Shown in pieces: positions 4,146-40,795 of a stretch of 41,024 nucleotides of DNA; position 1 is the first letter of the stretch, and the number at the start of each line of letters is the position of its first letter. This stretch comes from Anaerolineae bacterium (GTDB taxonomy: Bacteria; Chloroflexota; Anaerolineae; Fen-1058), in assembly GCA_003154115.1 (NCBI GenBank), contig PMCF01000305.1, positions 222 to 41,245 of the forward strand. The letters are read 5' to 3'. The notes under the pieces were generated by a model. That model saw nothing but the letters and a program-made list of their open reading frames with translations, did not search any database and was not told where the DNA came from. A program made the translations under genes and the position numbers.

Positions 4146-4934
4146 GTGGGAAAATTGGCGAAGTTTGAATCCAAAGCAGAGCAGTGGATTGAAGGAACCT
4201 TCGGGCGACTATTTGGCGGGCGGGTACAACCCATGGAAGTGGCGAGCGCCCTCGCCCGTGTGATGGAGGACGATCACTTTACAGCGGAAAACGGTGAACA
4301 CTTCGCGCCGAACGTCTATTGGGTCTATTTGAATCCAGCCGATTACGAAGCGCTGCGTGAAACCCGATCGAATCTGCCCGACGATCTGGCTCGTTCGCTC
4401 ATCGAGTTGGCCTCGCGTGCCGGGCTGCGCCTGACCGATCAACCCGCTGTTGAGATCCATGCCGATGAGCGCATTCCCCGCCGGCAGGTCTCTGTCGCCG
4501 GACAGTATGTGGCGCAGAACACCGCCCCGATTGGTCAAACCGCTGAAATCGCGGTGAGCCAGATCAACACTCTGCGGCAAGCCATTGATGCGTCCCTGGT
4601 TCACAGCTTTCTGATTCTGGAAGGCCGCCGGCATGTGCCGCTGGTGAAACCGGTCGTCACGCTGGGCCGCGCGCTCGATAACGATGTAGTGCTGGACGAT
4701 CCACGAATCTCGCGGCATCATGCGCAGCTGCGGCTACGGCAGGGCCGCTATGTGCTGTACGACACGGGGTCCAGTGGTGGCACGTTCGTCAATCAGCAGC
4801 CCGTCTCGGAAGTCGTCCTGAATGCTGGCGACGTCATCTCGCTGGCCGGCGCACAAATCATCTTCGGCGAAGACACGCCCACTCCGTCTCAACCGCCGGT
4901 CAAGACCGACGACACGCTGCCCTTGGGAAAATGA
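4146..4934 (+). CDS. FhaA-like protein: DUF3662 domain plus C-terminal FHA domain
   Basis: The 262-residue product begins at a GTG with a GAGG ribosome site. Residues 1 to about 115 match the pattern of the FhaA N-terminal domain (DUF3662: FESKAEQWIEGTFGRLFGGRVQPMEV-like start). After a linker, residues 155-242 form a forkhead-associated domain with the phosphothreonine-binding signature GR (174-175), SRHHA (189-193) and the Asn of TFVN (216). Such proteins bind Thr-phosphorylated partners of Ser/Thr kinases. In Actinobacteria and Chloroflexota they sit with cell-wall and division genes. A second FHA gene follows; no kinase or phosphatase gene is in this window. No membrane segment is visible, so it is probably cytoplasmic. 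Confidence 0.93.
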   Translation: MGKLAKFESKAEQWIEGTFGRLFGGRVQPMEVASALARVMEDDHFTAENGEHFAPNVYWVYLNPADYEALRETRSNLPDDLARSLIELASRAGLRLTDQPAVEIHADERIPRRQVSVAGQYVAQNTAPIGQTAEIAVSQINTLRQAIDASLVHSFLILEGRRHVPLVKPVVTLGRALDNDVVLDDPRISRHHAQLRLRQGRYVLYDTGSSGGTFVNQQPVSEVVLNAGDVISLAGAQIIFGEDTPTPSQPPVKTDDTLPLGK

Positions 4935-5108
4935 GCAATGAACAATTGGCAATGATCAATGATCAACGGAGACCGACATGGAAGATCGAAAAGCAATAGA
5001 CATCCAGGAACGCACTTTCAAGTTCGGAGTGAGAATCATCAAATTCGTCGATAAATTAACTCACCCAAACCATTGATCATTGAAAATTGATCATTGAACA
5101 TTTCTCAT
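4931..5108. mobile_element. Small inserted segment with imperfect inverted repeats carrying a gene remnant
   Basis: The space between the two FHA genes is bounded by ATGAG (4931-4935) and CTCAT (5104-5108). Inside these ends are CAATGATCAATGATCAA (4950-4966) and, inverted, repeats of TTGATCATTGA (about 5073-5096). The AT-rich composition contrasts with the GC-rich flanking genes. The segment overlaps the stop codon of the first FHA gene and ends at the start codon of the second. It looks like a small insertion that brought in part of a four-helix-bundle gene, but no target-site duplication was recognised. Confidence 0.45.
4978..5076 (+). pseudogene. N-terminal remnant of a four-helix-bundle (23S rRNA intervening-sequence type) protein
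   Basis: Thirty-two codons from ATG to TGA encode a product containing DIQERTFKFGVRIIKFVDKL. This matches the opening helix of the small four-helix-bundle family (also called 23S rRNA intervening-sequence proteins), normally about 115-130 residues long. The rest of the gene is absent and the frame ends in the inverted-repeat tail. It is probably a nonfunctional fragment. Confidence 0.6.
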
Positions 5109-11663: not shown

Positions 11664-11753
11664 ATTGGCCGTGATATGATCCAAATATCATCGGCGGAGT
11701 TTGCATGCGCAGTCAGCATATACTGCGAACGGTCATAGATTGCGGAAAAATCT

Positions 11754-12121: not shown

Positions 12122-12351
12122 TTTTCAGCCTTCGCCTCAGCAAGCACAACAAACAGCAAATTGAGCGACTGCCGGGCAACCTTCGCAATATTGCCCGGCG
12201 TCGTATTGTAGCCCTTCAGACAGAACCACGGCCAGCAGATGCCAAAGAATTAGACCACCATCCGGGATACTTTCGTCTCTGGCTTGACGCCACTGTTTAT
12301 CAACGGTCGTCGTGCGTCTGGCGCTCTCGGCGATGCCACATCTCCGCATAA
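12118..12351 (+). pseudogene. RelE/ParE-type toxin gene with lost C-terminus
   Basis: The basic product begins MIFSLRLSKHNKQQIERLPG and continues through RRRIVALQTEPRPADAKEL and GYFRLWLD, the helical hairpin and first strands of a RelE/ParE fold. At about residue 59 similarity ends: the expected strand ('YRIVY...' and a final 'VG.R' strand) is replaced by ATVYQRSSCVWRSRRC. The last 52 bases overlap the 3' end of the convergent mocA-like gene, so a deletion or rearrangement probably joined the two. The toxin is likely inactive. Confidence 0.6.
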
Positions 12352-12974
12352 TCCTCCGGCGTGTCGAGGTCCTTCAGCACGCTGTCCGTCTCCACCACTA
12401 CATAGCGAATCTGTGCTTCGTGCGCTCGAATGAAGTCGCGCAACGTGGTCGTCTCCGACAGAGCCAGCACCTCCGGCCACAACGCTCGATCGATCAGAAT
12501 CGGATGGCCGCGCTTCAGCTGATAGGATGGGATGATGATCGCCTGAGGCTGTTGGGCATCGATCCCACCACGCCGTTTCCTGTGCGAAGCACAGGCGGCG
12601 CGCTTGGCGAAAGATGGGGACTGTTCCGTCACGCGCTGGATCACAGCGCGCTGGATGCGCGGCTGATCGCCCAGCACGATCAGCGCGGCGGTTGCTTCGG
12701 CCGGTAAGGCGCGCAATCCCACTTGAATGGACACCAGCATATCGGCCTGAGCATAAGCGGAATTGAAGACACAGCGCACCGGATAAGAACTGAGCAGCGC
12801 CGCAATCTGATCGGCCTGGTGGCCGGTCACGACGACTAGGTCATGTACCTGCACACAGGCGGCCACTTCCGTCACGACGGTTTCCAGCACCGTCGACGCG
12901 GCCAAAGGCAACAGCATTTTGTTGCAGCCCATGCGGTGTGATTGTCCTGCGGCGAGAATGACAGCGCCAATCAT
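12300..12974 (-). CDS. MocA/MobA-like nucleotidyltransferase with in-frame repeat insertion
   Basis: The 224-residue product begins MIGAVILAAGQSHRMGCNKM, the NTP-binding signature of the molybdopterin cytidylyl/guanylyltransferase group. Later it has LGDQP (101-105) and RGHPIL (155-160), typical of MocA, which attaches CMP to molybdopterin for xanthine-dehydrogenase-type enzymes. Between them, about residues 119-140 (QSPSFAKRAACASHRKRRGG) come from a 55-bp repeat and have no counterpart in the family. The frame is open upstream through three 27-bp repeats, but ATG 12974 gives the conserved N-terminus, so that start was chosen. The ribosome site is the GGGG of the last repeat unit. No molybdoenzyme gene is in the window. 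The Lys after MGCN is conserved. Confidence 0.88.
   Translation of the reverse strand: MIGAVILAAGQSHRMGCNKMLLPLAASTVLETVVTEVAACVQVHDLVVVTGHQADQIAALLSSYPVRCVFNSAYAQADMLVSIQVGLRALPAEATAALIVLGDQPRIQRAVIQRVTEQSPSFAKRAACASHRKRRGGIDAQQPQAIIIPSYQLKRGHPILIDRALWPEVLALSETTTLRDFIRAHEAQIRYVVVETDSVLKDLDTPEDYAEMWHRRERQTHDDR
12560..12627. repeat. Long-form repeat copy inside the mocA-like gene
   Basis: The segment begins CGATCCCACC, carries a hairpin CCTGTGC GAA GCACAGG flanked by CGCCG/CGGCG, and ends AAAGATGGGGACTGTTCC. Bases 12560-12614 are identical over 55 bases to the reverse complement of 15693-15747. The outer parts match the 27-bp unit found at 12980-13060, so this is the unit with a hairpin inserted in it. 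Confidence 0.8.
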
Positions 12975-12979
12975 GAAAT

Positions 12980-13060
12980 AATCCCCGTCTTTGGGTGGGA
13001 CGAAACAGTCCCCGTCTTTGGGTGGGATGAGATAATCCCCGTCTGTTGGTGGGATCGACT
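12980..13060. repeat. Three tandem 27-bp repeat units
   Basis: Units at 12980-13006, 13007-13033 and 13034-13060 share the pattern AATCCCCGTCTTTGGGTGGG followed by seven more variable bases. Read toward mocA on the minus strand each unit is nine codons giving IPPKDGDYF-like peptides, all open. The array ends directly at the mocA-like ATG, where the last unit supplies GGGGATTATTTCATG. Further related copies lie at 12560-12627, 15681-15747 and 20212-20264. Confidence 0.85.
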
Positions 13061-14610: not shown

Positions 14611-14994
14611 CTACTTTATCATAAGTGGGAACGGGAAAAACAAGTGATGCTCGCTGCCCGTCACGCCAATCCATAGTTCCGGTTCGCGTTTGCCCGGTTT
14701 CAGTTCCACATCCTCGATCGCTTCCAGACGAATGAAGTAATTGCCCTTGAGCTTGACCCATTCGTCGAGCGTCGCCGGATCGATCTGGCTTTCGCGCGCC
14801 TGCACAGCCTGGATGCTGCGATCAGCCGATCGGGTGGCCACCACCTGGCCCTGCTCATCACGCCGATAATGCTTCAACGCCCCGCTGGTCCCCGTCTGAA
14901 TCAAGTACAGGCCGTCGTCAGTCAGCACTAACGAATAAACCCGCCGCACGCCCAGGGCCACCACGCGGATCACTTTATCGAAGCGCAGCGCCAT
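14611..14994 (-). CDS. Conserved-looking hypothetical protein
   Basis: The 127-residue protein starts at an ATG that overlaps the stop of the histidine phosphatase gene (TGATG), so the two are translationally coupled. It is predicted mostly strand-rich (VVALGVRRVYSLVLTDDGLYLIQTG) with a C-terminal FFPFP segment. This pattern resembles small PH-like or cell-wall-independent intracellular domains, but no family was recognised. No signal peptide or membrane helix is visible. Confidence 0.75.
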   Translation of the reverse strand: MALRFDKVIRVVALGVRRVYSLVLTDDGLYLIQTGTSGALKHYRRDEQGQVVATRSADRSIQAVQARESQIDPATLDEWVKLKGNYFIRLEAIEDVELKPGKREPELWIGVTGSEHHLFFPFPLMIK

Positions 14995-15626
14995 CAGTAC
15001 TCGTCCAGGTGATGCGTATCATTCGCCGCCAGTAATTCCCAACCCTGGACATTGATGTCCTTCAGCTCCAGCCAATGCCAATGAAAGATGGCGGTGTGAT
15101 CGCAGTGCATGAATGATATCAGGTTACGCTCGATCGGAATGCCCAGCAGGTGGAAGCTCACCATTTCGATCAGGCCCCCGTGCGTCACAATCACGATCGT
15201 CTTGCCCCAGTGGGTCTGCACAATCGCATCAAACGCCTGCGCGCCGCGCCGCAATAAATCGGCCAGGGCTTCGCCGCCGGGAAACGCGGGCGTATAGGGC
15301 AGCCGCCGGGCGCGCACCCAGCCATCGAAATCGACTTCCGCCGTGGCTTCCGACGGGCAATTGAGGCGCAATTCGGCAAGATTAGGATCGACGTTGAGGG
15401 GCAGCCCGGTGGCCTCGCCGATATGCCGGGCAGTCTGTCTGGCGCGCAGTAACGGGCTGCTGTACAACACATCCGGCTGGATGTGATTTGCCACTCGTTC
15501 GGCAACGCGGCGGGCCTGCGCATGGCCCTTTTCCGTCAGGCCATCCTCATGATCGGCCAACACCAGCCCGCCATCACTGTGCGCGCTGAACTGTTGGGCG
15601 TGGCGAATGAAGTAAAGATGTGTCAT
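14994..15626 (-). CDS. Histidine phosphatase family protein (phosphoglycerate mutase-like)
   Basis: The 210-residue product carries the catalytic RH motif at its N-terminus (FIRHAQQ, His9), the SSPLLRARQTA segment (Arg61), an acidic Glu85 and the second catalytic His149 in VTHGG. It is the size of cobC/GpmB-like phosphatases. The usual RHG is RHA here. It removes phosphate from a small molecule or protein; substrate unknown. Its ATG directly follows a partial copy of the 27-bp repeat (GGGGATTGTTTCATG), and an extended -10 promoter lies 42-50 bases upstream. Confidence 0.9.
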   Translation of the reverse strand: MTHLYFIRHAQQFSAHSDGGLVLADHEDGLTEKGHAQARRVAERVANHIQPDVLYSSPLLRARQTARHIGEATGLPLNVDPNLAELRLNCPSEATAEVDFDGWVRARRLPYTPAFPGGEALADLLRRGAQAFDAIVQTHWGKTIVIVTHGGLIEMVSFHLLGIPIERNLISFMHCDHTAIFHWHWLELKDINVQGWELLAANDTHHLDEY

Positions 15627-15667
15627 GAAACAATCCCCATTACCTGGTAGGATGGGACTTGGCGGCG

Positions 15668-15676: not shown

Positions 15677-15680
15677 CATA

Positions 15681-15747
15681 GGACAATCCCCGTCTTTCGC
15701 CAAGCGCGCCGCCTGTGCTTCGCACAGGAAACGGCGTGGTGGGATCG
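15681..15747. repeat. Long-form repeat copy upstream of the histidine phosphatase gene
   Basis: This is the same element as 12560-12627 in the opposite orientation, identical over 55 bases (15693-15747), including the GCACAGG/CCTGTGC hairpin. It is intergenic here. A partial relative (AATCCCCATTACC) lies at 15630-15645, directly before the ATG. Confidence 0.85.
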
Positions 15748-16701: not shown

Positions 16702-17883
16702 CTATATTCGGCCCCGCGCCGCATCGAGGAAATGCCGCAGTCGAGTGGAGAACGTGTAACGCCCATAGCGCGCGATCAACCACTCGCGTTCCGGCCACAG
16801 GGCGCGAAAAACCAGCTTCACCGCATCACGGGGTCGATCCACCAGCAGGAGCAAAAACACGTAGCGCCAGCGGCTCTGGCTAAGATTACGCCGACCGACG
16901 ATCAAGGCAGGGTTTGCCAGCCGGGTGATGAAGTGCCGGCGGAACGCGGAAGGGGCGAGAACGCGCACAGCAGCGTCTGCCTCGGTGAGCCCCAACAGAT
17001 TCACGGCAAGATTCAGGGCCAACCAGACCACTGCGGCCAGTCGCCACGCCTGTGCCCGCTGCACTACCGCATCCCAGTCAATCGATTGCCTCCGCGCCAG
17101 CAAAGCCATATCCAGCAGATTCCGCGCCGCAAAAAATGAGACTTGATGGTTGATCACCAGATGCGTCGCCGATTGGATCAAGGCATCTTCCGGCGACATT
17201 AGGCGGACTGGAACACTTTCTAGCTCTAGCGAGCTTACACGAACCCGCACACTCGTCTCGTCAACCCGCGCCGCATGCCGCAACCATTCACCAAGAAAGA
17301 CGCTGAGATGTAACTCGATCAGGCCGGTGTCTGAAGGTACACCGCTCATATGAATCTCGCCACCGAATTGCGTCATCAAAGCGGGAGGTCGATCGGGGTT
17401 GGTGATCTGCGCATAGCCCAGGCGGCGCAGCACGTCTTGCACATGCGGCAATTCAGCCGGCTCGATCCACAGATCGAGATCGCCCATCGGGCGACATATC
17501 GAATCAGGGTAAACGGTTCGCCCCAGTGCCGCCCCTTTGAAGACGATCGGCGTAATGCCTGCGGCCAACAACGCGCTGAGCACCGTGTGCAGCTCACGCC
17601 GCTGTAATTCCGCATCGCCCACAGCGGAGTAGTACGACATCTGCAATTGTGTGCCCGCTTCAAGGGATAGGTTGGGGGTCGTGCGGCACACCTGCCAGAC
17701 GAATGGGGCAAGACCTTGCTGTTGGACCCACTCCACTCCCAAAGCGTTGGTCGCATCGGCGCAGCTGAGTCGATCGGTCGTGAGTAGACTGATCAGCAAG
17801 CATCGCACGGCCGTCACACGGCTCGCTTGAAAGCCCGGTGGGGCATCAGCCGCGAACAGCGGCGCGACACTGTTGGCAAACAT
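16702..17883 (-). CDS. Nucleotidyltransferase family protein (NTP_transf_5-like)
   Basis: The 393-residue product has a central nucleotidyltransferase core: FKGAALGRTVYPD, then GDLDLWIEP (about residue 133), the Asp-x-Asp of the pol-beta superfamily, followed by IELH. The flanks are helical. Such proteins occur in polysaccharide and peptide-modification clusters, where their substrates are mostly unknown. The gene overlaps the end of the DegT gene by 38 bases, so it belongs to that operon. A shorter start further in cannot be excluded. Confidence 0.82.
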   Translation of the reverse strand: MFANSVAPLFAADAPPGFQASRVTAVRCLLISLLTTDRLSCADATNALGVEWVQQQGLAPFVWQVCRTTPNLSLEAGTQLQMSYYSAVGDAELQRRELHTVLSALLAAGITPIVFKGAALGRTVYPDSICRPMGDLDLWIEPAELPHVQDVLRRLGYAQITNPDRPPALMTQFGGEIHMSGVPSDTGLIELHLSVFLGEWLRHAARVDETSVRVRVSSLELESVPVRLMSPEDALIQSATHLVINHQVSFFAARNLLDMALLARRQSIDWDAVVQRAQAWRLAAVVWLALNLAVNLLGLTEADAAVRVLAPSAFRRHFITRLANPALIVGRRNLSQSRWRYVFLLLLVDRPRDAVKLVFRALWPEREWLIARYGRYTFSTRLRHFLDAARGRI

Positions 17884-19042
17884 AGTTCACTTGCTCTTCC
17901 GTCATCACACTTGAGAAAGGCAGCGCGAGGGAAACATCGCCCAAATATTCGGTTACGGGAAAATCGCCGCGCTGGTAGCCGAATTTGTCGCGGTAAAACG
18001 GCTGAAGGTGAATCGGTGTGAAATAGGGGCGGCTGGGCACGCCCGCGATCTGCAAACGCCGCAGCACTTCGTCACGTTGTGCCGGGGGTTTGATGCGCAC
18101 TACATACACGAACCAACTCATGCGCGTGGTCGACGCCGCGAGATGCAGCACCTCGATCAGTTCTTCATCCTTTAGGCGTTCCGTATACCAGGCGGCCACC
18201 TGGGCTCGCTTCGCTAACAATTCGTCGAGGCGCTTGAGCTGGCTCAACCCTAAGGCCGCGCTCAACTCGTCGAGACGATAGTTGTACCCCAGCCGCGAAT
18301 GGTTCAGCCATGCGTCAAACACATCGCGGCCTTGATTGCGCAAGGAACGAAACAGGTTGGCCCAGGCTTCGTCGTTGGTGACGATCATGCCGCCTTCGCC
18401 GGTGGTCATCTGCTTATTCGGATAGAAGGCAAAGACACCCATGTCGCCCAACGTGCCCGCTTTGCGCCCTTTATACTCCGCGCCGATGGCCTCACACGCA
18501 TCCTCAATCACGCTCAATTGATGAGTACGCGCGACTTCCAAGATCGGATCCATGTCACATGGCTGCCCAAAGGCGTGTACAGGCAGAAGCGCTTTCAAAT
18601 TTCTGAGTGCTGATTTCTGATTGTTGATTGATCTCGGCAACCAACGATTCTGCATCTCGCTTCCTGCGTCTTGCATCAAATCGTGCGCCGCTTCCGCCAC
18701 CAGCGCCGGATCGATGTTGCCCGTCTGCGGATCGACATCCACAAACACGGGCACGCCGCGCTCGTACAGGATGCTGTTGGCCGAGGAGATGAACGAGAAG
18801 GGCGTGGTGATGACCAGCTCGCCGGGCTGAACATCAGCGGCGATGACGCCCAAGTGCAGACCTGCCGTGCCGGAGTTGACACCCACGCCGAACTTCGCGC
18901 CGACAGCCTCTGCGGCTGCCTGTTCGAACGCTTTAATCTGTGGGCCGATGCTGAGAACCGGTGTGTGTAGGACGGCATTCACCGCCGCAATATCGTCGGC
19001 GGTTAGATCGGGGGAGGACATGGGGATGGGCAATTTAGACAT
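17846..19042 (-). CDS. DegT/DnrJ/EryC1/StrS-type sugar aminotransferase with an extra insertion
   Basis: The 398-residue PLP enzyme transfers an amino group, usually from glutamate, to a keto-sugar nucleotide. It shows NSGTAGLHLG, PFSFISSANS, DACEAIGAEY and the Schiff-base Lys210 in FYPNKQMTTGEGG. Residues about 123-149 (from MQDAGSEMQNRW to ALRN) are extra compared with the family, where the strand ending ALLPVHAFGQP follows directly. The DNA there is repeat-like and keeps frame. The N-terminal 60 residues are duplicated at 20105-20371. The gene overlaps the small gene upstream and the nucleotidyltransferase downstream, so all are probably co-transcribed. Confidence 0.93.
   Translation of the reverse strand: MSKLPIPMSSPDLTADDIAAVNAVLHTPVLSIGPQIKAFEQAAAEAVGAKFGVGVNSGTAGLHLGVIAADVQPGELVITTPFSFISSANSILYERGVPVFVDVDPQTGNIDPALVAEAAHDLMQDAGSEMQNRWLPRSINNQKSALRNLKALLPVHAFGQPCDMDPILEVARTHQLSVIEDACEAIGAEYKGRKAGTLGDMGVFAFYPNKQMTTGEGGMIVTNDEAWANLFRSLRNQGRDVFDAWLNHSRLGYNYRLDELSAALGLSQLKRLDELLAKRAQVAAWYTERLKDEELIEVLHLAASTTRMSWFVYVVRIKPPAQRDEVLRRLQIAGVPSRPYFTPIHLQPFYRDKFGYQRGDFPVTEYLGDVSLALPFSSVMTEEQVNYVCQQCRAAVRG
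18596..18676. repeat. Repeat-like in-frame insertion inside degT (approximate ends)
   Basis: About 81 bases (27 codons) have a composition unlike the enzyme gene. Short near-repeats are visible: TCTGAGTGCTGATTTCTGATTGTTGATTG-like spacing of TGATT motifs, and GCATCTCGC/TTGCATC at the other end. There is no stop codon in the degT frame. Confidence 0.5.
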
Positions 19043-19397
19043 AGGCTAAGTTGGGATCGTCCTGAATATAAGCGAGTGTTTGACCCAGATAGGGCAGCGC
19101 CGGCAAGTCATGCCACGCGCGTAGCAAGTGATAGGTAGGCGAGGTCAGTAATTGGCAGTGATCGACGGCCGCGCGCCACGCGGGACAACGAATTTCGGCA
19201 ATCGTCGCCGGTTCTGGCAGGAACCCAAAGTCCCACGCCGCACACAGACGCGCCAGAAAATCAATCTGATCGTCGAAGTCATCCAGCCGGGCAGGCGGCT
19301 CCACATCAGGATATAGCGCGCCGTCCAGCCAGACCTCAACCGGAGTGTTGTCCGGCGCCGAAGCATTATTCGGCAGCGAGGCGTTATTCGGCAGCAT
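19035..19397 (-). CDS. Small acidic protein paired with the AbiEii-like gene
   Basis: The 120-residue product probably starts at ATG 19397, which overlaps the end of the AbiEii-like gene by 14 bases. The first 15 residues carry a duplicated LPNNAS unit. The rest is rich in Trp, Asp and Pro (VEVWLDGALYPDVEPPARLDDFDDQIDFLARL). It ends eight bases inside the degT start. The overlap on both sides shows that it is translated with its neighbours. No family was recognised. Confidence 0.7.
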   Translation of the reverse strand: MLPNNASLPNNASAPDNTPVEVWLDGALYPDVEPPARLDDFDDQIDFLARLCAAWDFGFLPEPATIAEIRCPAWRAAVDHCQLLTSPTYHLLRAWHDLPALPYLGQTLAYIQDDPNLAYV

Positions 19398-20082
19398 CAA
19401 GAAACTCTCCCGTATACCAGGCCCGCAGGGCCTCGGCCTGTTGTTGCTGGGTCGAATCGGCAATCTGATCCAGACGGCGATGCTGCGCAATCCGCGCCAG
19501 GTGAGTTTGAATGGCTAGTTTGGCCCGGCCTACATCTGCCGGGCTGCCTGCTGCAGTTTGACGCCGCTGCCACAACGCCCAACAGTCACGCGGCATCAGC
19601 AGGCCCGCCTGGCACAAGGCGTGAATGTCACGAAAATCGCGCGGCGCGCCGCGTTCAACCAAGGCGACCATTTTGCTCGCGACCAGATCGGCCAGGCTAT
19701 CCAGCGGCACTTGAATCCAGGGGGCCAGCCGCGTCGGATCCAGTTGCGCCGAACGATGCGCAATCTGAAAACTAAAAACCGTTTTTCCGGCATGCACCAA
19801 CTCCACACTGGCCACATCACCCCAACCCCGGGTCTTCACCTCACCCGCCTGACGCAAGACCTCTTCAAGAATTTGGAGTACCTGCCGCCGATCGGCTTCG
19901 GTCGCCGTGTCGGTCCACCAGGCATCGACGTCATGGGTAGCCCGGTAATCAAGATAATGCAACGGGCCCAAAGCACCACCCAGCGAGATTTTCTCGGCCA
20001 GACCGTGATCGACCAAAGCCTGCAGGCACAGCTCACTATAGTCAGGCAGATGTTTCGGACGACGCGGCTGCAGAATAGTCAT
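19384..20082 (-). CDS. AbiEii-like nucleotidyltransferase
   Basis: The 232-residue product carries SLGGALGPLHYLDYRATHDVDAWWTD, the pol-beta-type GG...H...TxDxD core of the AbiEii/AbiGii (DUF1814) family. Later conserved parts are SKMVALVERGAPRDFRDIHAL. AbiEii proteins are toxins of abortive-infection systems that modify tRNA acceptor ends. The usual partner AbiEi (winged-helix antitoxin) is not present; instead a 120-residue acidic protein overlaps its 3' end. The pair lies between a degT fragment and a full degT, which suggests insertion. It could also be a non-defence family member. Confidence 0.82.
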   Translation of the reverse strand: MTILQPRRPKHLPDYSELCLQALVDHGLAEKISLGGALGPLHYLDYRATHDVDAWWTDTATEADRRQVLQILEEVLRQAGEVKTRGWGDVASVELVHAGKTVFSFQIAHRSAQLDPTRLAPWIQVPLDSLADLVASKMVALVERGAPRDFRDIHALCQAGLLMPRDCWALWQRRQTAAGSPADVGRAKLAIQTHLARIAQHRRLDQIADSTQQQQAEALRAWYTGEFLDAAE

Positions 20083-20104
20083 GCTTCACCACGACCTTTC
20101 GCAT

Positions 20105-20371
20105 CTATTGTACACCAACGCCGCCAGCCAAGGGCAACCCCGCCGTGCCAGAGTTGACGCCCACGCCAAACTTCGCGCCGACAGCCTCTGCTGCTGCCTG
20201 CTCAAACGCTTCGATCCCTCCCAAGACAGGGACTATCGTCCCACCCAAGGACGGGGATTGTCTCATCTGCGGACCGATGCTGAGCACGGGCGTCTGCAAT
20301 ACGGCATTCACCGCCGCAATGTCGTCGGCGGAGAGATCAGGGGAGGACATGGGAATGTGATAAGCAGGCAT
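20105..20371 (-). pseudogene. 5' fragment of a degT aminotransferase gene carrying a repeat insertion
   Basis: The first residues (IPMSSPDLSADDIAAVNAVL) and EAFEQAAAEAVGAKFGVGVN are nearly identical to the start of the full degT at 19042. Similarity stops after NSGTAGL, and the frame ends nine residues later. Between SIGPQM and EAFEQ the fragment has 17 extra residues (RQSPSLGGTIVPVLGGI) from two repeat units. Its ATG overlaps the stop of the FemAB-like gene, suggesting this was the original position of degT in the operon. Confidence 0.88.
20212..20264. repeat. Two 27-bp-type units inserted in the degT fragment
   Basis: Units GATCCCTCCCAAGACAGGGA... (from 20213) and GTCCCACCCAAGGACGGGGA... 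(20238-20264) belong to the family seen at 12980-13060. Compared with the uninserted degT copy at about 18935, 53 bases replace two, a net gain of 51 bases or 17 codons without loss of frame. Confidence 0.88.
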
Positions 20372-37105: not shown

Positions 37106-38022
37106 GGCTTCTCGCCAAGATAATTCTGCGGGTCCGGCCAATCGGGCCACGAACCACCCAGCCGCATCATCCTAAGCACACGTCGCACCGAAGCAATACT
37201 GAATCCCGCTAACCCCAACCAGCGAGAAGGTGCGGAATACCATTCTGCGTAAAAGGACTGCAACAAATTGCGACGCCGACTTCGATCCCAGAACAATTCA
37301 CGCACCAGCTCACGTTTGGAGAGGGTGCGTATTGACGGAGTCAGTATATTGGGCTGACACCAAACATAGGCGCCAGGCTCTATGAGCAATTTCCACCCGG
37401 CTCGACGCATCCGTGGAGTATACTCCGCGTCGCCAAAGCCGTATGGGAAAGCCTTTTCATTCATAAGCCCTAATTGCCTGATTGCTTCAACAGGATATAA
37501 CACGCAATTTCCGACAATGATCTCAACTTCCCACGGTTGCCGGGGAACAGTCCAAACAGTCAACTGACGCGGCTGCCGCCAACCTCCATACCAGGTATCC
37601 CAGCGCGCGCCCACCTGAAACACTTTGTGAGGTTGATCCCACAGCAGCAGCAGGGGACCGACTACTGATCGAGGATGATTTTCTGCGCAGCGCACCAAAC
37701 GCTGCAAAAATTGGTCGTGGAAGATCGAGTCGTCGTTGATGGCCAGGATATAATCAGGCTCCCGGTGCAGCGCTGCTTGAATGCCACGATTGGTTCCAGC
37801 GGTGTACCAGAGATTTCCATCCCCTGGCGCTAGTTGCACTTCCGGGAACTGTTCGCGAATCGCATCGCTCGTGCCGTCTGTCGAACCGTCATCCACGACG
37901 ATGATATGGACTTGCAAGCCTCTACAGTCAATACGCGAGAGGCTTCGCAGACATTGTAAAGTGATAGACTTGCGATTGTAGACCGGCATCACTATCTCGA
38001 CATGAATCATCTGATCGCTCAC
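37102..38022 (-). CDS. GT2-family glycosyltransferase
   Basis: The 306-residue protein has the GT-A core: VMPVYNRKSITLQCL, VDDGSTDGTSDAI, and NDDSIFHDQFL as the metal-binding Asp motif. FGDAEYTPRMRRAG follows. The start is a GTG at 38022 overlapping the upstream stop (GTGA); the paralogous fragment at 39019 starts at the same position relative to IHVE, which supports this choice over the ATG 12 bases later. Sugars not known. Confidence 0.92.
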   Translation of the reverse strand: MSDQMIHVEIVMPVYNRKSITLQCLRSLSRIDCRGLQVHIIVVDDGSTDGTSDAIREQFPEVQLAPGDGNLWYTAGTNRGIQAALHREPDYILAINDDSIFHDQFLQRLVRCAENHPRSVVGPLLLLWDQPHKVFQVGARWDTWYGGWRQPRQLTVWTVPRQPWEVEIIVGNCVLYPVEAIRQLGLMNEKAFPYGFGDAEYTPRMRRAGWKLLIEPGAYVWCQPNILTPSIRTLSKRELVRELFWDRSRRRNLLQSFYAEWYSAPSRWLGLAGFSIASVRRVLRMMRLGGSWPDWPDPQNYLGEKP

Positions 38023-38696
38023 GCCACAGACTCCTCTGCCAGAGCGCATTCTGCAATAATTCCATCAGCTAACTGTGGCGAAAGCCGGACGCACACATCA
38101 TTGATCCAGTTGATATAAAAGCGGTTGTGCGGGCGATGCTCAAAGCCAATATCATAAAATAAAAAGCGTTTAACGGAAAGATTCGCACGCGATACAAGGT
38201 GATGAAGGGTCGAGTACGAATAGTACGCCACGTGATCCGGATGCACAGGTTCCATCTTGCCGCCGCGTCCTCGCAGCGCGTAAATGAACATCCGCATACC
38301 GCAGTAAGCGTTGATTGTAGTGATCACCAATGTACTATCAGTCCTCATGAAGCGCTGGATCGCATGTAGGAACAACCCTGGGTTGGACAGATGTTCAATC
38401 ATTTCACCCGCCAGGATGACATCGAACTGCTTCTCCAAATCTAGCGTCTCCAGACGTTCTAGATCAACGCGCCGAAGATTGGAGACGCCGCTCTGGGCAA
38501 GTACGTCCAATCCGGCCTGATCGTAATCAAACCCCCATATCTCGCGCGCGACACCCTGCAGTTCAAGGTGCAGCAAACTGCCCAACTTCAACCGCCAGTT
38601 TGTATATGGCCAATCAGTGCAACCGAGATGTAGAACTGTTTTACCACGACAGGCTTGCTTCAAGTATTCGACCCGCTGAACTAATGGAATGCGCAT
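38019..38696 (-). CDS. Class I SAM-dependent methyltransferase
   Basis: The 225-residue product contains VLHLGCTDWPYTNWR, GFDYDQAGLDVL, FDVILAGEMIEHLSNP and a Met/Tyr-rich tail, a Methyltransf_23-like enzyme. The start codon MRIPLVQ lies in a 110-bp segment that is repeated before the gene at 40693, where the encoded protein also starts MRIP. A glycan or methyl-ester target is likely. Confidence 0.88.
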   Translation of the reverse strand: MRIPLVQRVEYLKQACRGKTVLHLGCTDWPYTNWRLKLGSLLHLELQGVAREIWGFDYDQAGLDVLAQSGVSNLRRVDLERLETLDLEKQFDVILAGEMIEHLSNPGLFLHAIQRFMRTDSTLVITTINAYCGMRMFIYALRGRGGKMEPVHPDHVAYYSYSTLHHLVSRANLSVKRFLFYDIGFEHRPHNRFYINWINDVCVRLSPQLADGIIAECALAEESVA

Positions 38697-38796
38697 TGAT
38701 CCTCTTATAGTAAATGTTTTGAGGCAAGCGCATGCGTAGCAGACGCACGCCGGTCTCGATAATGTTCAGCCGGAATACAAAGGACATTGGCTCCAG
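38683..38796. repeat. 110-bp duplicated segment, copy 1
   Basis: This stretch covers the 3' end of a FkbM-like gene (ASATHALASKHLL), a short spacer and the first codons of a methyltransferase (MRIP). It is about 85% identical by eye to 40681-40795. It marks a duplication or recombination boundary. Confidence 0.8.
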
Positions 38797-39019
38797 CGGT
38801 ATACCATAGATTTCCATCCCCTGGCACAAGCTGCACTTCCGGGAACTGTTCGCGAATCGCATCGCTCGCGCCGTCTGTCGAACCGTCATCCACGATGATG
38901 ATATGGACTTCCAACCCTGTGCGATCAATACGCGACAGGCTACGCAGGCACTGGAGCGTGATCGCCTTGTGATTACGAACAGGCGCAACGACTTCGACGT
39001 GGATGCATCTATTGCTCAT
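38705..39019 (-). pseudogene. Chimeric remnant: GT2 N-terminus fused to FkbM C-terminus
   Basis: Residues 1 to about 77 (IHVEVVAPVRNHKAITLQCL through GDGNLWYTAG) duplicate the start of the GT2 protein at 38022. From GANVLCIPAEHYRDRRASAT to the stop the product instead matches the tail of the FkbM methyltransferase ending at 40704. The join lies at a shared CTGGAGCYAATG. The product lacks the GT2 acceptor region and the FkbM core, so it is most likely nonfunctional. Confidence 0.85.
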
Positions 39020-39083
39020 GCAAACTCTCCGGCCAAGTATTGTCCAGCACTCAAGATTCTCTGGATCGGAACGGACTTCCTCT

Positions 39084-39878
39084 CTACTTTACAAAATGAA
39101 TGATTGGATCTCTAAGGGAAGTACCCACATCCGGGCTAATCACGGTATAGCCCAATTCCTGCAACATTGAGCAGGTTTCTCTAATCCCCGCGTGGTACCA
39201 ACGTCCTGGCCTCGGAGTATTATCTTCTGCTTTACTCACAAGTTCCGGCGGCTTGGACGGATTCAACAGCTTGTAGACCCAGTAGAGCACCTTGTTCCGT
39301 TTTCCCCAGAAAACCGGACGTAAAATCCTCAAACTTTCAGCCTGTATGGCTTGATTGTATTTGTCATAGTCGGCAACCATAATAAATCCATGCGCACCAG
39401 GTTTTAGCTTTGCATGCAGATTCTTCATATACTCCCGGATCCCCGCAAATGATATGTGGCAGAAACACCCAAAAGAAAACATGTAGTCGAAATGATTCTC
39501 GGGCAGCATGCTGCAACTGAAATCGGATACCTGAAAATAGTGAACATCCTTGTGCGCACCAACATAGAGATCAAACTGGTTATACTCTCTGGATAACGCG
39601 TCCAAACACCAAATCTCCTTTGCACCCAATTCCACAAAAGCTTTGGTCCAGGCACCTCTTCCCGGTCCGATCTCCACAACCGATGCATGAGGAGTAATGT
39701 ATGGCTTGATACATGCGAGATACGTCGCATGGAGCACACTCATATAGCCAATTGCACCATATGAGGACTGGCCAACGGGGTCTAGCGGATCCCCTTCATA
39801 GTATCCTCCTCGCCATACTCCATTGAACAGGCGTAATTCATGTTCCAGCCTAAGGTCAAGATCGGTTGTTGCTCCCAT
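39084..39878 (-). CDS. Class I SAM-dependent methyltransferase
   Basis: The 264-residue product starts at ATG 39878 after a strong AAGGAG; an ATG 27 bases earlier lies inside the previous gene. It has VVEIGPGRGAWTKAF (motif I), LDALSREYNQF, and FDYMFSFGCFCHISF. It is probably a glycan or lipid-intermediate methyltransferase; target unknown. It follows another methyltransferase gene by 11 bases. Confidence 0.88.
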   Translation of the reverse strand: MGATTDLDLRLEHELRLFNGVWRGGYYEGDPLDPVGQSSYGAIGYMSVLHATYLACIKPYITPHASVVEIGPGRGAWTKAFVELGAKEIWCLDALSREYNQFDLYVGAHKDVHYFQVSDFSCSMLPENHFDYMFSFGCFCHISFAGIREYMKNLHAKLKPGAHGFIMVADYDKYNQAIQAESLRILRPVFWGKRNKVLYWVYKLLNPSKPPELVSKAEDNTPRPGRWYHAGIRETCSMLQELGYTVISPDVGTSLRDPIIHFVK

Positions 39879-39889
39879 CAATCCACTCC

Positions 39890-40693
39890 TTAAGGGTCGT
39901 AGCAATTATCCGGATAAAGCCCGACCGCGCGCCAGTTCACAGCCGGATCAGCGATGTGTTGAGGGGGGTCGATCTTCCCTCGCCAGGCGATTCCCAACCC
40001 CACAGCAGTTTGCAGAAAAGTTACCTGCCAACCGCATTGCGCTAAATTGGACATGGCCTCATAAACATTCTCGTTGATTGTGTCGTGGCACATGATAGCG
40101 CAGTCAGGCTCGCAATAGTTCAAGACCGCCGATATGTCCCGCCGAGGCGCATCGCCAGCGTGGTCACCGTCAATAAAACAGAACGTCCAACGGTGGCCCT
40201 TTTGGCCGAGCACATGTACGTCCTCGGGACTGAGGCCCTTAACCAGGTTGACTCTCTCTGCAACACCAGCCGCCTGAAGAGCGTAACGGACTGTGTCAGC
40301 CTGCATACCGGAACCTAGACCTGGATCGATGACGTCCAGATGAATGTCGCTCAATGCTAGACATACCGTCGACCATCCCATCCAGCACCCAATCTCGAGA
40401 CCAAGTCCGTGCGAGAACCTCTTTGCCACATTCATTAGAACTGTGCTTTCATCCCATGTCACAAAGCCCACACCGGGCTGACGTTTATCCTCGCGTGAAA
40501 TGTGTGGAACGCGAGGATTAAACGACATCACTTGGTGAACACTGGGGAAGTACCGTTCGATGTCTCCGGGTAGATCGCCCAACCCTGGCGAGCAGTAATC
40601 ATGCGCCGAGAGTTGACCCAAACCAAGTAGTGGATGGCGCGTCCAAAGGCGTAATACCCGAGACCAACCTTGTAGACCAAATGGAATGCGCAT
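39890..40693 (-). CDS. Class I SAM-dependent methyltransferase (Methyltransf_24-like)
   Basis: The 267-residue product starts at ATG 40693 after GAGAGGAG. It has GLEIGCWMGWSTVCLAL, DVIDPGLGSGMQADTV, FCFIDGDHAGDAPRRDI and MCHDTINENVY, the pattern of Methyltransf_24 and cephalosporin-hydroxylase-like proteins, which bind SAM and a metal at the Asp/His cluster. The substrate is probably a sugar. The longer open frame upstream lies in the FkbM gene. Confidence 0.88.
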   Translation of the reverse strand: MRIPFGLQGWSRVLRLWTRHPLLGLGQLSAHDYCSPGLGDLPGDIERYFPSVHQVMSFNPRVPHISREDKRQPGVGFVTWDESTVLMNVAKRFSHGLGLEIGCWMGWSTVCLALSDIHLDVIDPGLGSGMQADTVRYALQAAGVAERVNLVKGLSPEDVHVLGQKGHRWTFCFIDGDHAGDAPRRDISAVLNYCEPDCAIMCHDTINENVYEAMSNLAQCGWQVTFLQTAVGLGIAWRGKIDPPQHIADPAVNWRAVGLYPDNCYDP

Positions 40694-40795
40694 TGATCTC
40701 CTCTCATAGTGAATGTTTTGAGGCAAGCGCGCGCGTAGCAGACGCAAGCCGGTCTCGATAATGTAGAGCCGGGACACACAGGACATTAGCTCCAG
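40681..40795. repeat. 110-bp duplicated segment, copy 2
   Basis: This is the counterpart of 38683-38796. Here it spans the FkbM 3' end, the spacer and the start of the Methyltransf_24-like gene, so it is likely the parent arrangement. Confidence 0.8.

Follow-up and report, generated by a model that had tools for sequence, protein, structure and literature searches.

Transposons of the IS200/IS605 type, such as IS608 and ISDra2, insert 3' of a fixed tetranucleotide without duplicating the target, and they carry subterminal hairpins and short, guide-like sequences. The palindromic elements of Rickettsia are small palindromic repeats that are inserted in frame into coding genes. REP sequences, together with their TnpA-REP (RAYT) transposases, are small palindromic repeats present in dozens per genome; they are believed to transpose in single-stranded form, using short cleavage motifs and leaving the target unduplicated (PMC8266576, PMC3733652). 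The TAACTGA direct repeats of the Beggiatoaceae and Cyanobacteria lie upstream of start codons and have been proposed as sites for a post-transcriptional regulator (MacGregor 2015, PMC4679880). Here, we describe a miniature element that has traits in common with each of these; a literature search, confined to open-licence papers, found no description of it. The window, a stretch of 41,024 nucleotides from an Anaerolineae bacterium, contains three arrays and two long forms of the element (Table 1), one of which, in a fragment of a degT gene, was the subject of an earlier note.

Table 1. Copies of the element in the window and the genes that surround them
Feature	Position	Strand	Remarks
Insert in degT fragment, 51 bp	20216..20266	+	Two tandem short units: 20216-20239 (24 nt) and 20240-20266 (27 nt)
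degT 5' fragment	20105..20371	-	88 codons; holds the insert
Intact degT (PF01041)	17846..19042	-	Empty at the same site
AbiEii-like nucleotidyltransferase gene	19384..20082	-	Between the degT copies; context, outside the element
Array of three 27-nt units	12973..13053	-	Last CAT + next G form the start codon of the NTP_transf_3 gene
NTP_transf_3 (MobA-like) gene	12300..12974	-	Starts at the array; also holds a 66-bp insert
Long form with hairpin core, 66 bp	12564..12629	+	After CGAT; 22 in-frame codons inside the NTP_transf_3 gene
Single 27-nt unit	15625..15651	-	CAT + next G form the start codon of the His_Phos_1 gene (14994-15626)
Long form, 66 bp	15678..15743	-	After CGAT; upstream of the His_Phos_1 gene

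The element exists in two forms, the lengths of which (27 and 66 nt) are both multiples of three. The short form is CCCACCNNNAGAYGGGGATTRTTYCAT on the conserved strand and has no hairpin. The full form, to which most long forms correspond in length, is made up of CCCACCACGCC, a hairpin core and AAAGAYGGGGATTATTTCAT, the ends being common to the long forms and the core lying between CCCACC and AAAGAYGGGG. Folded as DNA, the long form scores better than shuffled sequences (z -2.2 to -2.6), the 27-nt form does no better than shuffles, and an Rfam covariance-model search with the element gave no relevant match. Core types A and B are found solely inside this element, and a third hairpin family, C, also stands alone. 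A separate family of hairpin repeats around GCCGGGTACGACGAGGCG is seen both alone and within some long forms (L094, L102, L079, L108).

The unit matches four places in the window versus 0.00 in shuffles, and the genome (G000; 7.7 Mb in 460 contigs) holds 57 units at three or fewer mismatches versus none in a reversed control; the repeat is therefore not a product of chance. Together with some long forms, these units are placed in 54 locations. The census was made by matrix and patterns and may miss diverged copies, a looser 12-mer scan being too noisy; an unselected 666-kb sample contained 3 units. Copies on the same contig are more alike than expected (permutation P 0.005), probably pointing to local spread. 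Among 199 genomes of the class, the element occurs only in G000-G003, which belong to one family (f1), and in 0 of the 195 others, and a scan of an 84,980-species collection gave matches only in Thermoflexales MAGs and none in Rickettsiales. The genomes are metagenome assemblies, that of G000 having an estimated contamination of 8.5%, and the element is present in four separate assemblies. It is also found in three contigs classed as viral in IMG/VR, of which at least one (L248; IMGVR_UViG_3300002124_000247) is a tailed-phage contig that encodes terminase, portal and head proteins. Its unit (11704-11731) lies at the start codon (ATG) of a 315-aa gene downstream of the head genes, and this copy suggests that the element may move between host and phage. 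Several short units and one long form are present in an 86.7-kb viral-classified contig (L249/L247; IMGVR_UViG_3300031949_000016).

Inspection of both degT copies confirmed that the fragment has 17 codons that the intact gene lacks. The insert is, judged by its sequence, two tandem copies of a miniature, non-coding element, the CCCACC...CAT strand of which is antisense to degT. Its borders, previously placed at 20212-20264, are best set at the 51 bp given in Table 1, directly after CGAT. On the plus strand, the fragment reads AACGCTTCGAT, followed by the 24-nt unit CCCTCCCAAGACAGGGACTATCGT, the 27-nt unit CCCACCCAAGGACGGGGATTGTCTCAT and CTGCGG, with the junctions AACGCTTCGAT^[51 bp]^CTGCGGACC; the empty site of the intact gene is AACGCTTTAATCTGTGG or, set beside these junctions, AACGCTTTAATCTGTGGGCC, and that of the degT orthologue in G002, a genome of the same family and another genus, is GGCGTCGATCTGCGGG or, likewise, GGCGTCGATCTGCGGGCC. 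In this orthologue, CGAT and CTGCGG are uninterrupted, exactly as if both flanks of the fragment had been joined, from which it follows that 51 bp were added and none lost. The earlier description of 53 bases replacing two thus gives way to a simple addition plus a TA/CG substitution, the TA of the intact gene accounting for the two bases supposedly replaced. At the junctions, AT or ATC is the sole possible terminal duplication, and this would be better read as the target CGAT and the element's terminal CAT than as duplicated target.

The insert is missing from the intact copy and from the degT orthologues of G002 (81% identical), G017 and G016, and the empty state is therefore ancestral, the direction of change that the earlier note had favoured. 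That note had also recognized that, were the 17 codons present in all orthologues outside this genome, the intact gene would have become empty by deletion of an ancestral repeat; the orthologues lack them. A deletion might draw on a contig of G003 (G003:C476) that has two degT 5' fragments, one with a single unit at the same point, the insertion therefore not being confined to G000, but the other fragment is empty, the inserted sequence belongs to a dispersed repeat that obeys a target rule of its own, and the intact orthologues refute this reading, which we regard as extremely improbable. The degT insertion either predates these genera or travelled with the fragment. The repeat did enter an empty site, as had been proposed, but the window does not hold its own before/after pair: its two degT copies are diverged duplicates, 79-87% identical, that flank the AbiEii-like gene, and the better "before" state is the G002 orthologue. 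Similarly, the frame is indeed kept, but in a truncated duplicate such as the fragment this is uninformative.

Gene order in G002 is uninterrupted (degT2-GNAT-degT-NTP5). The fragment in the window follows a GNAT gene, as degT does in G002, and is separated from intact degT by the AbiEii-like gene and an unnamed ORF. Toxin-like modules, AbiEii-like or TumE-like, recur beside or between degT 5' fragments (window 17846-20371; G003:C476; G000:C241). A TumE-family toxin gene and a small partner lie between the two fragments of G003:C476 (L078, 383-1471), and a TumE-family pair precedes a degT remnant in G000:C241 (L079, 10040-11301). The neighbourhood of the degT 5' fragment looks like a recurrent integration spot.

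Because the NTP_transf_3 gene is intact and the degT copy only a fragment, the long form within the former is the better filled/empty pair and the better example of a tolerated in-frame insertion. The 22 codons that it contributes are TEQSPSFAKRAACASHRKRRGG, and the orthologues in G001, G002 and G004 lack it and align straight across the point; its core is identical to that of the long form upstream of the His_Phos_1 gene. The same orthologues have no array at the site equivalent to that from which the NTP_transf_3 gene starts. The units of this array are of different subtypes, as are those of an array at sdhB, and the stacking of unlike subtypes within one array speaks against local tandem duplication as the sole source of arrays, making repeated insertion at the same point likelier. 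Both intragenic inserts keep the reading frame, as the element comes in lengths divisible by three. The parallel here is with the palindromic elements of Rickettsia, in that 22 codons have been added to an intact gene and 17 to the degT fragment, but lineage and sequence are different, and the two inserts represent a minority, intragenic class of an element whose main theme is its seating on start codons. Elsewhere in the window, there is an inverted repeat of ATTGATCATTG-type sequence (4929-5103), and a glycosyltransferase/methyltransferase cluster contains diverged direct repeats of 236 and 97 nt (37789-39021 and 38700-40795).

The exact seating of the same element at start codons across the genome had been overlooked, and the earlier account was to that extent incomplete. 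At 31 of the 54 locations, the final AT of the unit is followed by G, giving ATG. This ATG opens an ORF of at least 100 aa at 21 of the 54, the rate for CAT sites of this genome being 6.7% (P about 1e-11), and it is the 5'-most ATG of such an ORF at 18 of the 54, as compared with 1.0% of AT sites (P about 7e-23). A G also comes next at 15 of the 33 places without an ORF of this length, a modest excess. Of the places that end in ATG, 68% are followed by a long ORF, and a preference for the sequence ATG alone thus does not explain the seating. Pfam domains are carried by 18 of the 21 ORFs, which encode ribosomal protein S10 (rpsJ), TruA, NuoM, GlmS, transketolase, an SdhB-like protein, SelB, the MobA-like NTP transferase, a histidine phosphatase, an epimerase, glycosyltransferases and others. 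Several of the starts are beyond doubt, the domain beginning almost at the N-terminus: at residue 2 in SelB, at residue 7 in S10 and at residue 8 in transketolase. GlmS requires Cys2. For one of the 21, a class-III aminotransferase, the real start may lie further downstream.

Orthologues within the family have an empty start codon in seven of these genes: rpsJ, nuoM, glmS, tkt, truA, sdhB and the NTP-transferase gene. Beyond these seven, the starts rest on ORFs and Pfam, and about 60% of the places do not coincide with a verified start codon. For rpsJ, the empty site AAGGAAACAACACGTT^ATG of G004 compares with the filled AAGGAAACAAACAGCAT-CCCACCAGAAGATGGGGATTATTTC|ATG of G001, in which the inserted unit spans CCC...TTTC before ATG; G000 is also filled. 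For nuoM, the empty site is TTGAGGTAACT^ATG in G003 versus TTGAGGTAACTTTCCAT-[long form]-ATG in G000, and G001 carries a long form and, after it, a short unit. Of 25 start-codon copies, 14 have a motif resembling a Shine-Dalgarno sequence in the left flank (background 16%, P 8e-6), as do 9 of 37 other copies. The simplest reading of these sites is that insertion split the old start codon between its AT and its G.

The target is CNRT, the four bases to the left of the element, the right end of which is YCAT. C is found at -4 in 27 of 36 copies away from start codons (P 7e-9) and in 13 of 22 start-codon copies, and most have R at -2; the search patterns in part dictated the T at -1 and the terminal CAT, which are not independent evidence. 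The degT and NTP-transferase inserts both follow CGAT, with matching uninterrupted orthologues. The joins are clean in comparison with G002 and other orthologues, the AT at both ends leaving a 2-bp duplication formally possible. New copies would thus be added 3' of CNRT with no loss of target bases and apparently no target duplication, and where the target ends in the AT of a start codon, the CAT of the new copy and the old G would remake ATG. The sequence before the remade ATG, GGGGATTATTTC, has the geometry of a Shine-Dalgarno sequence and spacer, its GGGG being a weak Shine-Dalgarno; it could act as such, the old ribosome-binding site being displaced 27 or 66 nt upstream, and a function of GGGGA in translation is plausible. 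As for a guide, base-pairing of CCCACC with the Shine-Dalgarno sequence of the target is not supported, the left flanks having no excess of GGTGG or GTGGG.

If copies landed at random on any CNRT and purifying selection alone removed the harmful ones, those at start codons would survive as silent, since the remade ATG and Shine-Dalgarno sequence would render them harmless; the lengths in multiples of three would also fit this view. Intergenic CNRT sites upstream of or away from the ribosome-binding site should, however, be equally harmless and are far more numerous, and if start codons are assumed to make up 5-10% of tolerated sites, 18 of 54 has, even at the assumed 10%, a P of about 3e-6. 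We therefore consider random landing doubtful, though a serious possibility, and start codons to be either targeted or positively selected; enrichment of start-codon copies would reflect such targeting or favour rather than mere tolerance. Our more specific proposal, that the element is targeted to translation-initiation regions (CNAT^G behind a Shine-Dalgarno sequence), inserts within the start codon and, while remaking the ATG, supplies the gene with a new ribosome-binding site, such that rpsJ, glmS and selB would now start inside a mobile element, with movement between host and phage suggested, is tentative, and we give it somewhat less than an even chance.

The seating also invites comparison with the TAACTGA repeats. 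Both repeats are short and are stacked directly 5' of many start codons, those of ribosomal-protein genes included, with no functional theme downstream. The element lies directly 5' of start codons and in the same orientation at 21 of its 54 places. In contrast to the TAACTGA repeats, which are heptamers with little Shine-Dalgarno character and no hairpin, it is 27 or 66 nt long with a Shine-Dalgarno-like GGGGA, its fixed CAT end becomes part of ATG, it follows the CNRT rule and it has orthologous empty sites; the heptamer is not found in it, the unit sequence differing throughout. The closest published parallel having been proposed to consist of post-transcriptional regulator sites (PMC4679880), the element might be an old translational control site, bound by an RNA-binding regulator or forming a structured 5' leader, that was selected at start codons and spread by recombination or local duplication. 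Exact seating, fixed orientation, stacking at start codons and conservation of CCCACC and GGGGA would all suit such a regulon. It is nevertheless distinctly improbable: copies inside degT and the NTP-transferase gene and far from any start obey the same CNRT rule, the affected genes are functionally unrelated, the long hairpin form resembles a mobile repeat, there is no Rfam match, and CsrA, a candidate binder, is absent from the genome.

That the repeat forms a family, its copy number, the occurrence of its sites both filled and empty, its preference for CNRT, and the fact that copies are seated on start codons and stacked in tandem are matters of observation. We take them to describe, with a probability of about 0.7, a non-autonomous miniature mobile element that probably transposes as a single strand (HUH-type) and has been either kept at start codons or directed to them. 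It would be moved in trans by a single-strand transposase of the HUH/Y1 type, an enzyme favoured because the joining of the element 3' to a short sequence, with no apparent duplication, resembles IS200/IS605-type transposition. Unlike members of that group, the element bears no transposase, has a loose target and is much smaller than any IS. Nor is a transposase linked to it: G000 has five Y1 (PF01797) matches, with no element in the flanks searched, and across 31 genomes the presence of Y1 genes does not track the repeat, none being common exclusively to the carriers.

Mobilization by a TnpA-REP transposase in the strict sense would account for the small size, the hairpin, the lack of target duplication and the short cleavage-like motif at both ends, and Y1 genes are present in the genome. 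As in REP sequences, which are imperfect palindromes of 20-40 nt, a small hairpin repeat occurs in many copies (57 units, the 66-nt form having hairpins). Its conserved ends are CCCACCACGCC and AAAGAYGGGGATTATTTCAT, however, with no GTAG or CGTC tag at the end of the palindrome and no GTAG at the hairpin foot in any of the long forms listed; the hairpin is dispensable, as the 27-nt form illustrates; no RAYT gene is linked to the repeat, nor are the Y1 genes; and the copies are found at start codons and within coding sequences rather than being mainly extragenic. A strict REP origin is thus unlikely, and we return to a non-autonomous element moved in trans.

If this interpretation is correct, translation initiation regions can spread as mobile modules, a small repeat entering the start codons of essential genes, leaving them unbroken and replacing their ribosome-binding sites. 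Protein levels could be rewired in this way, and the element would offer a test case for the means by which small repeats escape doing damage; it may also explain other start-codon repeats whose spread lacks a known mechanism. As filled and empty orthologues of the same genes are available, the idea is directly testable.
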